64,000 bases of DNA from Ureibacillus sp. FSL W7-1570 (GCF_038593265.1 NZ_CP151979.1:868001-932000), one strand, 5' to 3'. Shown: positions 2,168-14,780, numbered from the stretch's first letter. Notes: generated from the letters alone by a model not told the origin. Made by a program: numbers and translations.

Positions 2168-3947
2168 CTACATTTCGAACACAAATGAAACTTTCCCATC
2201 GGTAATCGTTAATTTTGCATCAAACGACTTTCCTGCTTTTGATGTAAACCCTTTAATCATGGATGTAGTTCCTTTTTCCAATAAATCTGTGACCTGCTTG
2301 TCTGTTAACTTTTTCCCTAAAATCGTTCGATTGATCGTAAACTTACAACCGTTACGATAATTGCTACAACCGATAAATGTCTTTCGATCTATCATCGTTC
2401 CTTTTCGACAAGACGGACAGCTACCAAAGTGATCAGTCTGTTGTTCTTGAGCAAATGATACCGTTTCGATTTCTTGCATTGCAGCTGGTGCGGTTTCTAA
2501 CAAATCCGATATAAACCTTTTCGTCTGTGCAACGAAGACCTCTTTTGTACCGCTTCCTTCACCAATCTTTTTCAAGTAACTTTCCCACTTTGCTGTCATT
2601 GCAGGACTTGCAAGCATGGTGTTATGGATGGCTTCACAAAGAAGCTCACCCTTTTTCGTAATCGAAACTATGTTCTTGTTGATATCAATATAGCCATTCT
2701 TTTTAACTGTTTCGATAATGCTTGCACGAGTAGCTTCTGTTCCAATTCCTTCAATTTCTTTCAAAATTGCAGAATCTTCTTCATCTTCTACCATTTTCCC
2801 CGAGGTTTTCATTAAATTAATTAAGCCCCCTTCTGTATATGGTTTAGGTGGGCTGGTACAAGCTTCCTTTGAATGTAACAAACTTGTTACCTTTTCATCA
2901 ACAACTACAACAGGAAGTACGGGATCGTCTTCTTTTTTCTCGATACCTTCCACTGATTTTGTAAATAACAGTTTCCACCCTTTATCAATTTCAACTTTCC
3001 CAATACTTTCAAATTCAATATCATTTACAGAAGTAAGTATTTTCGTTTCTTCATAAACATAATCTCGATGAAACATCGCAAGTGTTGTAAGTACGATTTC
3101 TTCATAAATCGATTTTTCTTCTGTTGTCAGACCGTTCAGATTCGTATCAGACGGTATAGTTTTCGTTGGAATAATTGCATAATGCACCTGTACTTTCGAA
3201 TTATCGACATAGCGTTTATTAACTTTTAAATTTGCTTCAAACGTAACGTTTAACAACTCTTTATATCGTTCGAGATTCTCAACTAAATACAAAAATTCAT
3301 TTTCCGTAATATAATTGGAGTCGGTACGTGGATAAGTAACTAATTTCTTCTCATATAAAGATTGCATCACTTCTAATACTTTTGCAGGACTATACTTCCA
3401 CTTTTTATTGGCAACCGTTTGTAACGTTGATAACGAATGCAATTTAGGAGATTTTACACGTTTTTCTTTCTTCTCAACAGAGACAACCATACCACTTATT
3501 TCTGAATCAAGTAAACAACCGTTGTCCTCAACAAATGATTGTAATGGTTCAATCGTATCCGTTCGAATGTTTTTAGCTTTCCCCATATACATACCGTTTG
3601 CTGTTTTAAACTCACCAACTAGTTCAAAAAATGGTTTCGAAACAAACTGTTCGATTTCCTTTTGGCGCTGATAAATGAGATAACATAAAGGGCTCTGAAC
3701 ACGCCCAACCGACAACGTCATATTCACACCTTTTTCATGCATTAACAAGCTATATAATTGACTGGCGTTCATCCCAACGAGCCAATCACTGATTTGACGA
3801 GCCTTTGCTTCTTCATACATCAATAAGTCTTTTGAATTATCCAATAAGCTATTAAAACCTTTTCTTACTTCTTCTACTTCTAGCGAATTAATCCATAAAC
3901 GTTTAATCTTCTTATTTTTCACGTCCGTCTTATTCAAAATAGAATAA
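2168..3947 (-). pseudogene. Topoisomerase III, 5'-truncated (Toprim domain lost)
   Basis: About 590 residues homologous to type IA topoisomerase III. Present are the core domains, the active-site tyrosine in LVTYPRTDS, and a C-terminal Cys-rich module (CPSCRKG, then CSNYRNGCKF) followed by a topoisomerase tail. Missing is the N-terminal Toprim domain (about 130-150 residues), which supplies the acidic metal-binding residues, so the product cannot be catalytic. The frame runs into the terminal repeat of the neighbouring ISL3-type element near 3945, so truncation is best explained by that insertion plus loss of the flanking DNA. It differs clearly from the complete topB at 12.6 kb and resembles the second TopB-like enzymes found on plasmids and integrative elements, suggesting it is left over from such an element. 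Confidence 0.85.
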
Positions 3948-3983
3948 AAAATAGGGTAATCGGATTAGTGAGTTGAAAGAGGG

Positions 3984-5329
3984 TTAAAACTCTCCCTCTT
4001 CCATCGCTCTCACTAAAGTTGAAATGTCTGCTCCAAGTGTAACTGGTGGCCACTGTGCAATGTCATCCCAAAAGTTTCCGTAGTTGGACATTACGTTGCC
4101 AAATGCACCTGTCATATCCGAGCGTTTAGAATGACGTGTCTTACGTTGTTTCCTAAAGCCCTCAGTAAACAGTATTTTGGCTCTAAGGGCTTCAAAGGAG
4201 TAACCACCCCTACCCATTCGATTACAATGGCGTATGAGGCTATTTAAGCCTTCTGTGTATGCGTTGGTAAGTTTCTTAGGACTATCAAAGTACGCAAAGA
4301 ACTCTTCTTCCCAATTCTCAGAAGCAGTAATGAGTTCTTGGAAGTGGGGTTTAAGTTCCTTTGGTATCTTTTGTTTCCATGATTGAAACTTGTGATAGGC
4401 TTCGACTTTTTTCTCTAAGTCCCATATGTCAAAGAGTTCCTCTTTTAGTTCATAGGCTTCGGCTAATAGAGGGAAGTATCCAGTCCATGTTTCCAGTAGG
4501 AAAAGGTCTTCAGGTTTAAGGTCACGTTTACGAGATAAAAGAACCCATCTATCACGCATTAACTGCCTACGTTGCTTTGTAGGAAGGTCTTTCTTGTAAC
4601 TCCTTCTGAACTTTTCCAGAGCTTCATTAGCCTTTTTGACAACGTGGAACTTATCTATGACTATTGTGGCCCACGGAAGCTCTTGATTCACTGCTGTTCG
4701 GTAAGGGTTCCACATATCAATAGTGACGTATTTGATTCGTTCCTTATCGGGCAAAGAACGCAGATAAGGGATAACTGTACCAAGTTCACGATTTTTCAGA
4801 ATATCAATGACTGTTCTATGCTGTATGTTTGTCACAACGAATCTTGGTTTCTTTAAGATATGGATTTCATCCATACCCAACCAAGCAGGAGTTTCAAATG
4901 AAATCTCTTGTTCCAGTTCAGCCACATAGTCTCGGAAGATATTACGGACTGTTTTTTCATCAACGCCAATCTCTTCTGCAATACTTGTAAAAGTGCGTTT
5001 GAGAGAAGCGTCACGAATGTATTTAACAGTCTATTGGTCATAAAACGGACATCATCCATATCGGGCAGTGTTTCCCAAAAGGTATGACTGCATTGTTTGC
5101 ATCTAAACCTTTTACGGTCAACTGTAATGCCAACACGCTTACTGTGCATGGTGGTGTCCATATAAAGCTGTTTCTTACGCCCGAATCTTTGAAAGTCGGG
5201 CGGACAACCCATAGGACAAGCAGGTGGAGACAGGATCGTCTCCACCAAGAAGTTGTAATTGTAATCATCTTCTTTCCAGTCCTTAATGTTATACAAATCT
5301 AAATTAAGCTCATTGTGCATGACTATCAT
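3984..5329 (-). pseudogene. ISL3-family transposase, frameshifted
   Basis: The 5' part (from ATG 5329) encodes an N-terminal region with a zinc-finger-like CPMGCPPDF...CKQC pattern. The 3' part (to 3984) carries the catalytic DDE domain: Asp in GMDEIHI, Asp in TIDMWNPYR and Glu in NAYTEGLNS. The two parts are in different frames. Around 5027 (CTGTTAAATAC) the first frame becomes nonsense, while the other gives KYIRDASLKRTFTSIAEE, the expected helix-turn-helix linker. A one-base change therefore breaks a protein of about 445 residues. The site has no canonical X-XXY-YYZ slippery heptamer, so programmed frameshifting is unlikely though not excluded. The start codon overlaps the stop of the BRO-N gene by four bases (ATGA), implying translational coupling. 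Confidence 0.8.
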
Positions 5330-6111
5330 TGCCCTTCTTGTTGTAATAGTTCTGTGATTTTACGTTTACCTTTCTCGTTGTATTGGAACGAGCTAACTTG
5401 CTTATCTGAATGTCGGGACTTATCGAGAACCCATATACCGTATTCATCGGTTTTTAATCCATGCTTGTTGGCGATACGACCTATTTTGTTGGCTGAAACG
5501 CCCAGAATTGCCCCTATTTGCCCTGCTGTGTAGGTTTTAGGTATTTCGGGTTTAGGAAGCATTGGAACGTCTGAAATAAGCTCTGTGGCGTTTCCTATGA
5601 GTATCTGAATCTGTTCCTTTGGGAGAATGTCTTTGAACTTGTCAGCTACATTTACGAGCAATCTCGCTTGTCTGGTCTTTGCATTACGAATACGAGCTTC
5701 TAATTCAAGTTTACGAGCTTCATCACCTTCAACCACCGTCAGTTTGGGGGTAGTTGGAGTGATTTGATAATCGCCCTTGCGAAGACCTTCCAGAACGTCA
5801 TATACGAAGTCGAAGAACGCATCAGCTTTTGGTTGTCTGCTCCATCGGCAGATTTCATAGACACCTTTTGCAGTATAAAGAATAGTGTCGTAGGCTTTGC
5901 CATCAGTTGTCGTCAGTTTGGTGACAACTGAAAATTTATCTAAACGGTGCTTATAGCGTTCGTGAATCTTTTGAATCGCCTTCCTCGGTTCAGAGTATTC
6001 TAACGCTGTACCGATTTGTTCTCTGGTCATAAAGACTTCGTTATTATCGCTGTAAAAATCACATTGCATTGAACCGAAAGGAGCTGATTTAACAAGTGAA
6101 AGGTTACTCAT
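5326..6111 (-). CDS. BRO-N / phage antirepressor-like protein
   Basis: A 261-residue protein. The N-terminal 110 residues match the BRO-N fold of phage antirepressors and baculovirus BRO proteins (MQCDFYSDNNEVFMTREQI, then ALEYSEPRKAIQKI and the FFDFVYDVLE end). The middle is charged and helical. The C-terminal part, from about residue 190, contains a second DNA-binding-type segment (TAGQIGAILGVSANKIGRI). Such proteins usually bind DNA and relieve repression in phages. Here the gene lies inside the terminal repeats of an ISL3-like element and overlaps the transposase start by four bases, so it probably serves the element, for example as a regulator or end-binding accessory factor; that role is inference. 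An AAGGGGG ribosome site lies 7-8 nt before the ATG. The frame is intact although the transposase is broken. Confidence 0.8.
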   Translation of the reverse strand: MSNLSLVKSAPFGSMQCDFYSDNNEVFMTREQIGTALEYSEPRKAIQKIHERYKHRLDKFSVVTKLTTTDGKAYDTILYTAKGVYEICRWSRQPKADAFFDFVYDVLEGLRKGDYQITPTTPKLTVVEGDEARKLELEARIRNAKTRQARLLVNVADKFKDILPKEQIQILIGNATELISDVPMLPKPEIPKTYTAGQIGAILGVSANKIGRIANKHGLKTDEYGIWVLDKSRHSDKQVSSFQYNEKGKRKITELLQQEGQ

Positions 6112-6224
6112 TGATTTGCCCCCTTAAACATACTGTGATTGACCATAGTTTCTGGGTATGCTGACCAATTGACATTAGCAAGACCAAATAGCTTTTTAGA
6201 TACATCAGCAGAAGCGTTAAGCAA
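6108..6224 (-). CDS. Possible 38-residue leader ORF upstream of the BRO-N gene
   Basis: From TTG 6224 a short frame ends in TGA that overlaps the BRO-N start as ATGA. The peptide (LNASADVSKKLFGLANVNW...) has normal-looking composition. No clear ribosome site precedes the TTG. It might be a remnant of a longer gene or an upstream coupled ORF of the element; support is weak. Confidence 0.25.
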   Translation of the reverse strand: MLNASADVSKKLFGLANVNWSAYPETMVNHSMFKGANQ

Positions 6225-6278
6225 TTCTTCACATTGTCAACCATGTAAGTATAAATATTTATAAATTTATTTGTGTAT

Positions 6279-6307
6279 TAAAAAAGACCACCTGTTATGG
6301 TAGTCTT
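6279..6307 (-). terminator. Hairpin terminator at the entry edge of the BRO-N/ISL3 element
   Basis: AAGACCACC (6284-6292) pairs with GGTAGTCTT (6299-6307); on the minus strand it is followed by a run of T (6279-6285). It would stop transcription entering the element from the chromosomal side. Confidence 0.6.
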
Positions 6308-6560
6308 CAACTCAATAATCCGTTTTTTATATACATGAACAAATATTATAAATTAATGGTTTTCAACCGTATAATCCGATTACCCGATTTTTATTGCGGT
6401 TAAATAATTTTGTCAAAATACCCATACAAACTACCAACCTTTCCAAATCATTATCTACTAAACAACTATGAAACTGGATGATCTTGACAACCAGCCGAAA
6501 AAATAAAATGGATTTAGGAATATTTTATCATATTTTCCAACTCAGAATATCTCCTTTTAC

Positions 6561-9477: not shown

Positions 9478-10660
9478 TTACCCCTTGGCGGATTTGTTCG
9501 TGACTTTGGCGGATATTTTTTCATAGTTGGCGGATTCCCTTCCCGATTTGGCGGATATCCTGTTCCACAGAGGACAAACTTCACCCCCCCTGGCGGATTT
9601 GTTCCCGACTTTGGCGGATTTTCTTCCATGGTTGGCGGATTCCCTTCCCGATTTGGCGGATATCCTGTTCCACAGAGGACCAACTTCTCCCCCTTGGCGG
9701 ATTTGTTCCCGACTTTGGCGGATTTTCTTCCATGGTTGGCGGATATTCCTTCCCTTTTGGCGGATATCCTGTTCCACAGAGAACCAACTTCTCCCCCTTG
9801 GCGGATTTGTTCCCGACTTTGGCGGATTTTCTTCCATGGTTGGCGGATTCCCCTCCCCTTTTGGCGGATATCCCGTTCCACAGAGGACCAACTTCTCCCC
9901 CTTGCGGATTTGTTCCCGACTTTGGCGGATTTTCTTCCATGGTTGGCGGATATTCCTTCCCTTTTGGCGGATATCCCATTCTACAGAGAACCGACTTCTC
10001 CCCATTGGCGGATTTGTTCAGGACTTTGGCGGATTTTCTTCCATGGTTGGCGGATATTCCTTCCCTTTTGGCGGATATCCCATTCTACAGAGAACCGACT
10101 TCTCCCCATTGGCGGATTTGTTCGCGATTTTAGCGGATTTCCTTTCATGGATGGCGGATTCCCCTCCCCTTTTGGCGGATATCCTGTTCCACAGAGGACA
10201 AACTTCACCCCCCTGGCGGATTTGTTCGCGATTTTAGCGGATTTTCTTCCATGGTTGGCGGATTCCCCTCCCCTTTTGGCGGATATCCCGTTCCACAGAG
10301 GACCAACTTCTCCCCCTTGCGGATTTGTTCCCGACTTTGGCGGATTTTCTTCCATGGTTGGCGGATATTCCTTCCCTTTTGGCGGATATCCCATTCTACA
10401 GAGAACCGACTTCTCCCCATTGGCGGATTTGTTCGCGATTTTAGCGGATTTCCTTTCATGGATGGCGGATTCCCCTCCCCTTTTGGCGGATATCCTGTTC
10501 CACAGAGAACCAACTTCTCCCCCTTGGCGGATTCCCTTCCCAATTTGGCGGATATCCTGTTCCACAGAGAACCAATTTCTCCCCCTTGGCGGATTTTCTT
10601 CCATGGTTGGCGGATTCCCCTCCCAATTTGGCGGATATCCAGTCCCCGTGAGAGCCAACA
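9478..10660. repeat. Array A: about ten 104-bp units, each with four phased TCCGCC motifs
   Basis: About ten complete 104-bp units plus two shortened ones. Each unit contains four copies of GGCGGA (TCCGCC on the minus strand) spaced 21, 21, 21 and then 41 bp; for example starts at 9800, 9821, 9842 and 9863. Spacers are also repeated, with variants such as TGTTCCACAGAG and CATTCTACAGAG mixed along the array, as if by shuffling between units. The array lies between the lysC terminator and the DoxX gene and is free of stop codons in several frames, creating long but meaningless open frames. Confidence 0.95.
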
Positions 10661-12629: not shown

Positions 12630-14780
12630 TCATCCTTTGTGGGCATCGGGAAATTCCATTTTCCAACTGAACAGATCTTGATCCGGATGTTTTTCATAAC
12701 GCAATATGGCATCGAATTTGTTTCCTTTTTTGCTGGTGAGGCCTTTCACGAGCACCTTCCCGTTTTTCAACAGCTGCTTCACCATCGTTTTGGTTGGTTT
12801 CTTTTTCATGGAAGCGAGGAATTTATCATTTTTCCAGATGACGAATTTGCAACCGCTTTTCCAATTGCTGCAGCCGAAACCTTTTTGCCCTTCGATGACC
12901 GGATTGCCGCAAAGAGGGCATTTCCCCAACGGTTCAAATGTTTTCTTTTCCACTTTATTTAAGATGATTTCTTCCTCTTGCTGTATGATGTGTACGGCTT
13001 TTTTTGTGAAATCGAAAATGAATTGCAAAAACCGGTCCCGGTGAAACTTTTGTTTTTCTATATCGGCAAGCGTCTTTTCCAATCGGCCGGTAAATTCCAA
13101 ATCAAACAGTTCTTTGACAGGAAAGGTTTCCACCAATCTTCTGCCAAGTTCGGTGCACATCAAGTATTTGTTTTTCGTTGTTATGTAGCCGACCGTCTTC
13201 AACTTTTTGATGGTTTCCGCCCGCGTCGCCGGGGTGCCGATGCTGAAACCGCTCAGGACATTTGCCATGATTTCTTCGCTTTCCTGCTCCCCGCTCCCTT
13301 TCCCTTTTCCGCATGTTTCCATGACTTTGAGCAATGTTTTTTCCGTATGGTGCTTCGGCGGCTTTGTCACATGGGAAGTCAGTTCATGGTCCACGATTTC
13401 CACTTCCTCATGGAGGGATACATTTGGAAGAATCGTGTCCTTTGATTCTATATTTTCAACTTTCCGCCATCCCTCCACCAGTTGAACCCTGCCCTTTGTT
13501 ATAAATATTCCGTGGACGTCAGCGTGTTCCATTTTCGTGACGATTTTTGTTTCTTCATGTTCTGCCAGGGGCATAAATTGCATAATGAACCGGTTTTTGA
13601 TCGCATCATAGACGATGGCTTCATCCTTTGACAGGGAGGACGGTTTTACGTACGTCGGGATGATGGCGCTATGGCTCTCGACTTTTGAATTGTCAAAGAC
13701 CCGCTTCTTTTTGGCAAAGACGATTTCTTCTTCATAAGGAAGGCCCTTTTTCAACGTTTCGAGCACCTTTTTCGCTTTATCCTCCAAGCTTTCTTCCAAC
13801 ACGACACTAGCCGTGCGGGGATAGGTGATGTATTTCTTTTCGTAAAGGGATTGGGCCACTTTCAATACTTTGTCCGAAGTCCAGCCCTTATATTTGCCCG
13901 TGATGTAACCTTGCAAATTGGTCAGGTTGAATAAATAAGGAGGATATTCCTTTTTCTTTTCCACTGTTTTATCAATGATGCGGGCTTTCCGGGCTTGCGG
14001 ATCGGCCAGCGACTGTCGGATCTGTTCCAGCGTTTGCCGGTCTTTGAATTTTTCTTCTCCCTTTTCATGATACGTGCCTTCATACATGCCGCCATCACAG
14101 GTTTGGAAGGTGGCTTCCAGTTTGAAATAGTTTTCGGGAACAAAGTTTTCGATTTCCTTGTCGCGGTCATAGATGATTTTTAGGGTCGGAAGGAGAACCC
14201 TTCCGATGTTTAACGCGCTGCCCGAACCTTTCTGATATTTCAAGGTCGTGACAGAAGTCAAATTGATGCCGATCACCCAGTCTGCCCATTGGCGGCAAAT
14301 GCCCGCATCCAATAGCGGCCGCAAGTTTGTATTGGGGATGAGATTCCGGAGGCCTTTCAGCACCTCTTCCTGCGTCCATTCATTTTGCAGCATGCGAAAG
14401 ACGGGTTTTGCAGGTTTCATCCGGTAAATGATCGTATCGCCGATGAGCTGCCCTTCCCGATCATAATCGCATGCGGAAATGATCATTTCGATGTCCGGAC
14501 GTTGGATGAGCTGCCGGATGATTTGCAGCTGTTTTTTTGCCCCAAAATCGCCCTTCACTTTGTATTGGAAATTGGATGGGATGAAAGGAAAATACTCCAT
14601 TCTCCAAGTTTTCATTTTCGGATCGTAATCTTTCGCATCATACAATTCGAGAAGATGGCCGAACGCCCAAGTGATGATGTAGCCGTTCCCTTCAAAATAG
14701 CCGTCTTTTTTCGTTTTTATGTTTAACGCATCCGCTATGTTTTTCGCTACAGATGGTTTTTCCGTCAATATGAGTTTCAT
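12630..14780 (-). CDS. topB: DNA topoisomerase III
   Basis: A complete 716-residue type IA topoisomerase that relaxes and decatenates DNA by a 5'-phosphotyrosine intermediate. The Toprim domain is intact: EKPSVAKNIA at the N-terminus and CDYDREGQLIGD near residue 105 carry the metal-binding acids. The active-site tyrosine is in YITYPRTAS near residue 325. The C-terminus has a CPLCGNP...CSNWKSGCKF module and a basic tail. The longest frame starts at TTG 14789, but the AGGTGA ribosome site is correctly spaced (9 nt) only from ATG 14780. It is the second TopB-like gene in the window; the one at 2168 is truncated. The promoter is not obvious and no terminator is clear below it. Confidence 0.93.
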   Translation of the reverse strand: MKLILTEKPSVAKNIADALNIKTKKDGYFEGNGYIITWAFGHLLELYDAKDYDPKMKTWRMEYFPFIPSNFQYKVKGDFGAKKQLQIIRQLIQRPDIEMIISACDYDREGQLIGDTIIYRMKPAKPVFRMLQNEWTQEEVLKGLRNLIPNTNLRPLLDAGICRQWADWVIGINLTSVTTLKYQKGSGSALNIGRVLLPTLKIIYDRDKEIENFVPENYFKLEATFQTCDGGMYEGTYHEKGEEKFKDRQTLEQIRQSLADPQARKARIIDKTVEKKKEYPPYLFNLTNLQGYITGKYKGWTSDKVLKVAQSLYEKKYITYPRTASVVLEESLEDKAKKVLETLKKGLPYEEEIVFAKKKRVFDNSKVESHSAIIPTYVKPSSLSKDEAIVYDAIKNRFIMQFMPLAEHEETKIVTKMEHADVHGIFITKGRVQLVEGWRKVENIESKDTILPNVSLHEEVEIVDHELTSHVTKPPKHHTEKTLLKVMETCGKGKGSGEQESEEIMANVLSGFSIGTPATRAETIKKLKTVGYITTKNKYLMCTELGRRLVETFPVKELFDLEFTGRLEKTLADIEKQKFHRDRFLQFIFDFTKKAVHIIQQEEEIILNKVEKKTFEPLGKCPLCGNPVIEGQKGFGCSNWKSGCKFVIWKNDKFLASMKKKPTKTMVKQLLKNGKVLVKGLTSKKGNKFDAILRYEKHPDQDLFSWKMEFPDAHKG

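Follow-up and report, generated by a model that had tools for sequence, protein, structure and literature searches.

The window considered here is a stretch of 64,000 nucleotides from Ureibacillus sp. FSL W7-1570 (GCF_038593265.1, NZ_CP151979.1:868001-932000), and our subject is a 2432-bp element of the ISL3 family on its minus strand (window 3954-6385), in which a Bro-N antirepressor-type gene stands immediately upstream of the transposase gene (tnp). The element is a real, decayed member of an ISL3 variant that carries passenger genes, and we regard it as probably the dead derivative of a transposon that had captured a control module resembling the immunity-I region of phages. Its intact counterpart in Bacillus sp. 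REN10 is, to judge from the gene layout and the coupling of the genes by overlaps, an operon arc-orf84-ant(Bro-N)-tnp, and the captured module, as read from its sequence, probably sets the expression of the transposase.

The intact copy and the recurrence of the pair

A scan of one genome per species in 84,980 species returned one further copy of the element, in Bacillus sp. REN10, whose genome belongs to another family of the same class as the window host, and searches of genomes of the class, order and phylum gave no close copy except this one. The REN10 element (2926 bp, locus L003 4231-7156) is 99.7% identical to the window copy, which is set apart from it by two deletions (1 bp in the transposase gene, and 496 bp), an insertion of 3 bp and two substitutions; each is single-copy in its genome, that of the window host measuring 3.28 Mb. 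The 8-bp target-site duplication (TSD) AAGAAATT flanks the REN10 element on both sides, and a tyrosine integrase gene is split by it, the joined flanks restoring one 400-aa frame. According to this duplication and the reconstructed empty site, the unit transposed as a whole. The initial annotation of the window had envisaged both an unbroken copy with target duplication and a second genomic instance of the pair within repeats, and REN10 supplies the two at once, to which three divergent elements can be added. From the left end inward, its order is end repeat, subterminal copy of that repeat, terminator-like hairpin (z -4.7), promoter, arc, gap, orf84, Bro-N and transposase, with an ATGA overlap at each of the orf84/ant and ant/tnp junctions. 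The transposase is a single 447-aa frame that matches PF01610 (DDE; E 2e-60) and PF13542 (helix-turn-helix, HTH; E 5e-10), as well as the zinc ribbon PF14690, at an E of 2e-4 that falls below the cut-off of that profile. As for the structural marks of ISL3, terminal inverted repeats (TIRs) and an 8-bp duplication were found in REN10, and TIRs without the duplication in the window copy.

The pairing of Bro-N with an ISL3 transposase was also found in more distant elements. Profile searches (80 ISL3 loci, viral contigs) identified two more Bro-N genes directly upstream of a transposase, in L111 and L109 (Pfam E 7e-22 and 1e-24), the former with the TSD GAAACAAC and an ATGA overlap between the two genes, the latter with a 12-nt gap between them and without target duplication. 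A third such element, L243, lies in the Pseudomonas aeruginosa plasmid NZ_CP064404 and has TIRs, the TSD TGGATTTT and a TTGA overlap. Across the four elements, identity is 38-45% among the transposases and 21-44% among the Bro-N proteins, which differ in their C-terminal parts. Because the tree sets REN10 apart from L111, L243 and L109, among ISL3 elements without a Bro-N hit, and its well-supported branches require at least three changes, the pairing, as far as the tree tells, arose more than once, or the passengers were repeatedly exchanged. The nearest ISL3 transposases of the Bacillaceae (47-53% identical) have no Bro-N within their 1.5-kb flanks. We conclude that modules of the phage immunity-I type appear to have been captured as ISL3 passengers.

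The control region

The top promoter match within the REN10 element is of the sigma-70 type (TTGACA-17-TATTAT, 11/12), and the spacer between its -35 and -10 holds the inverted repeat ATGTTT-AG-AAACAT. It precedes a gene for an Arc-like repressor of 59 aa with a TTG start (phrog_3180, E 1e-12), which is separated by a gap of 140 bp from orf84, a gene of 84 aa. A related module free of transposase lies on the 40.9-kb Paenibacillus cellulosilyticus phage-plasmid NZ_CP054610, which also occurs as the viral contig L158. On the plasmid, an Arc-like gene (69% identical), a small open reading frame (ORF) and a Bro-N gene (49%) keep the REN10 order, with which the promoter, the spacer repeat in the same position, the gap and a 4-nt overlap preceding Bro-N are also held in common, whereas the small ORF is dissimilar to orf84 and both the transposase and the ISL3 ends are missing. 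DNA identity between the two modules is 72% in the promoter, 72% in arc and 64% in the gap, and 40% at the next gene. Bro-N relatives in the Bacillaceae stand in prophage-like regulatory regions without a transposase.

In REN10 and the Paenibacillus plasmid alike, the gap contains a promoter on the opposite strand (TTGCCG-18-TATAAT), downstream of which come a strong hairpin and then T residues (z -5.7 and -4.4 for the two gaps). The hairpin stems have changed in sequence on both sides with their pairing kept, and in both modules the ribosome site of the gene after the gap pairs with an upstream CCTCCT. A gut phage, in which an Arc-like gene precedes a different Bro-N, has the opposite-strand promoter TTGACT-17-TATACT and a hairpin in its gap, bringing to three the modules with an opposite-strand promoter and a terminator-like hairpin. 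A sar-like antisense RNA is therefore a predicted product of the gap between arc and the following ORF.

In phage P22, immunity-I comprises arc, mnt, the antisense RNA sar and ant, and it is Arc, Mnt and sar that control ant (PMC2629481). REN10 is like this region, the 'ant moron', in having an Arc-like gene and an antirepressor gene with, between them, a gap whose opposite strand bears a promoter and a terminator, and also in the inverted repeat that the operon promoter contains between its -35 and -10. Unlike P22, it has no mnt (no second repressor ORF was found in the REN10 element) and has the extra orf84 between gap and ant, its operon ends in a transposase, and the predicted antisense RNA maps upstream of the ribosome site. 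With no mnt and an antisense RNA that is a prediction, we describe the control module as resembling immunity-I in plan and do not claim that it belongs to it.

Proposed mechanism

The control of insertion sequences is usually put down to weak promoters, frameshifting and host factors. In REN10, the transposase should be under the captured control, because no other good promoter precedes it. One promoter inside the left end would drive arc, orf84, Bro-N and the transposase as a single operon; the Arc-like protein would repress that promoter through the inverted repeat in the -35/-10 spacer, and the antisense RNA from the gap would restrain the coupled orf84-ant-tnp, assisted by the ribosome-site hairpin. 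Upon entry into a cell without repressor and antisense RNA, the operon would give a brief burst of both antirepressor and transposase before switching itself off. As in phages, the antirepressor would have its targets in trans, in the repressors that resident prophages make, and not in the transposon ends. We judge this full mechanism, in which a phage immunity-I-like module was captured and controls the transposase, to be a fairly probable account. The initial annotation had suggested that Bro-N regulates transposition; regulation is plausible, but its source is more likely the upstream module of promoter, Arc-like gene and antisense RNA than Bro-N alone. Were it so, transposition would track phage-like entry signals, the transposase being the last gene of a repressor/antisense/antirepressor operon. 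Only tentatively do we go further and propose that a switch of the phage lysis-lysogeny type became a transposon control that is quiet once established and fires in a naive cell, with the antirepressor able to wake resident prophages, themselves likely carriers of ISL3 elements from host to host.

Several observations weigh against this account. The putative operator is an imperfect inverted repeat to which no calibrated probability attaches, and the predicted antisense RNA falls upstream of the orf84 ribosome site, not over it; an Rfam search of the control region gave no convincing match and nothing above chance. For orf84, searches of family profiles, phages and plasmids returned no relatives, and its AlphaFold model is poor (mean pLDDT, the predicted local distance difference test, 46.6), with no reliable fold. 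Furthermore, the Arc-like and antisense part is known from one ISL3 element alone (REN10 and its window copy), and a profile search detected no Arc-like gene in the other Bro-N elements. A search of 100 genomes from a single genus, the one to which G434 belongs, yielded no Arc-like gene.

Alternative explanations

The simplest rival is that ISL3 elements acquire neighboring genes and that Bro-N is plain cargo, one of many phage genes taken up in this way (a moron) and without a role in transposition, co-transcription being a mere consequence of layout. It is favored by the fact that all 35 distinct ISL3 elements for which the two ends were located and the target duplication matched at 7/8 positions or more have ORFs upstream of the transposase, in a survey that comes nearly entirely from viral contigs, with ORFs called mechanically, and does not extend to all ISL3 elements; at most bacterial loci the flanks were too short and the ends were missed, and the passenger survey thus describes viral contigs. 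The identifiable passengers are diverse and mostly phage-type (YopX, Lar, PAPS-reductase-like, DNA methyltransferase, queuine transferase and antirepressors), and Bro-N is a rare one: of the 5000 plasmid records that scored best, two have it, and these are near-identical to each other. Cellular cargo is known as well, from ISPpu12 (lspA, czcD, cueR) and ISPst2 (a permease and ArsR) (PMC12060670, PMC4447125, PMC6305408). These two elements share with ours the ISL3 transposase, ends of the GGGT...CGG type, the 8-bp duplication and passengers beside tnp, but here a phage antirepressor is carried, which is linked to tnp through 4-nt overlaps and, in REN10, comes with its repressor and control region. 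It is this co-captured promoter and control region that speaks against plain cargo, together with the recurrence of stop/start overlaps in unrelated Bro-N elements, and we hold plain cargo to be possible but rather unlikely.

In our literature search, an antirepressor was not found described as an ISL3 passenger. PMC3230853 cites a report of bro genes in prokaryotic class II transposons, which are similar in that a bro-type gene lies within a transposon, and different in that they are termed class II and, as cited there, no ISL3, Arc or antisense arrangement is described. The survey points to phage genes upstream of the transposase as a regular feature of the ISL3 elements found in phage sequences; if true, these elements would be a general route by which phage 'morons' move between phages and chromosomes.

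Much less probable, and in our view an improbable explanation, is that Bro-N serves transposition as a cofactor, by binding to the ends or to the transposase. Such a role would suit the DNA-binding, regulatory nature of Bro-N proteins and the physical coupling of Bro-N to tnp in four divergent elements. However, ISL3 elements with similar ends, other passengers and perfect target duplications have moved without Bro-N, the transposase has a zinc ribbon and an HTH of its own, and the four Bro-N proteins diverge from one another as strongly as described above. The recognition of the ends by Bro-N that the initial annotation had put forward is likewise disfavored, because similar ends occur with quite different passengers. 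That an ISL3 element merely inserted beside a prophage Bro-N, with a coincidental outer repeat, is conceivable given how common Bro-N genes are in prophages, but it is refuted to the point of being practically untenable, because the REN10 insertion is independent, has Bro-N inside its ends, a perfect 8-bp TSD and a restored empty site, and three further divergent elements, two of them with a TSD, repeat the arrangement.

The window copy and its decay

The window locus is bounded by a pair of inverted repeats (3947-3978 and 6361-6392) that span 32 nt each and are 84% complementary. Repeats of about 35 bp had been placed earlier at 3942-6396; terminal repeats they are, but comparison with the intact REN10 copy narrows the element to 3954-6385, beginning and ending with GGGTAATCGG...CCGATTACCC, its imperfect ends being about 25-32 bp long. 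A repeat search and the REN10 alignment set the left, operon-side TIR at 6361-6385 (minus strand) and the right, transposase-side TIR at 3954-3978 (plus strand). A second, subterminal copy of the end repeat (6306-6325, minus) is 90% complementary to the right end, and directly inside the left end comes a terminator-like hairpin (6283-6308, minus; z -4.4 to -4.7 in folds of the identical REN10 stretch), which could block read-through from outside. Left-end terminators were observed in only 5/37 ISL3 elements, against 1 expected, so they are no rule of the family.

The Bro-N gene (5326-6111, minus) is an intact frame of 261 aa that matches PF02498 (E 8.5e-9; 36.4 bits against a curated cut-off of 25.6) and, over nearly its full length, the PHROG anti-repressor phrog_1726 (E 8e-36). 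Its stop overlaps in an ATGA the start of the N-terminal transposase frame, which contains the ISL3 zinc ribbon by profile match (4853-5329, minus), and the DDE part continues in a shifted frame (3984-4925, minus; DDE_Tnp_ISL3, E 2e-60), NCBIfam transpos_ISL3 also exceeding its cut-off. The translational coupling of Bro-N to an ISL3 transposase within TIRs, and the intact Bro-N frame beside a frameshifted transposase, had both been read correctly from the outset. The frameshift corresponds to the 1-bp deletion against REN10, near window position 5029; this change may be a sequencing error, which could hardly account for the 496-bp deletion.

The scar of the latter (6234-6242, minus), located by alignment to REN10, has ACAAT repeats at both breakpoints. 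Gone are the promoter -10, the Arc-like gene and half of orf84 together with the gap that separated it from arc. What is left includes the -35 (TTGACA) and a 3' remnant of orf84 (6108-6236, minus; phmmer match of REN10 orf84, E 2e-24) whose stop overlaps the Bro-N start. Because the -10 and the operon start are deleted, the window Bro-N is probably without its native promoter, and the activity in trans once proposed for it is unlikely for the same reason.

The window copy has no target duplication, its flanks reading AAAAAATA and GATTTTTA. It interrupts topB, encoding DNA topoisomerase III (2168-3937, minus), at about residue 120, the NCBIfam profile match of the remaining part beginning at 113-119, and further topB-type genes are present elsewhere in the host genome. 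The initial annotation had missed this interruption, the two deletions and the lack of a target duplication.

Other observations

A second topB-like gene, an open frame of 719 aa, lies in the window 9 kb from the truncated topB (12714-14780, minus), and an IS3-type transposase frame lies at 66-725; together they suggest a mobile-element patchwork at the window start. Between the two topB-type genes, at 9481-10553 and upstream of an aspartokinase-like gene, is a tandem repeat of 104 bp, present about ten times and open in several frames, within which a 21-bp unit (TTGGCGGATATTCCTTCCATG) is nested. In REN10, ORFs resembling an XRE-type repressor and ImmA/IrrE occur near the split integrase (L003 1033-2285), and the insertion locus, read from translations, is a unit like a prophage or an integrative and conjugative element beside suf-type genes.

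Among the other ISL3 elements, two in viral contigs of the same metagenome (L065 2301-5247 and L066 1206-3646) have several upstream ORFs, with a NikA/CopG-like ribbon-helix-helix protein immediately before the transposase and, in L065, the perfect TSD ATTATTTT; they are possibly another repressor-controlled transposase. In the bacterial genomes of L034 and L035/L051, an adenine-methyltransferase-like ORF and a 362-aa protein were seen by eye directly upstream of the ISL3 transposase, the latter being perhaps, by its position, a restriction enzyme and the two possibly a mobile restriction-modification pair. Transposases of 443 aa adjoin ORFs resembling mercuric reductase (L014-L018, L043-L048), or a metal P-type ATPase and ArsR (L013, L019), neighbors that were read by eye at loci with short flanks where the element ends were not located. 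Finally, the ISL3 transposase lies immediately downstream of, or overlaps, an annotated DNA methyltransferase gene in Vibrio phage K256 (L246) and Lysinibacillus phage vB_LspM-01 (L247), the former locus being matched by about 20 Vibrio phage records.

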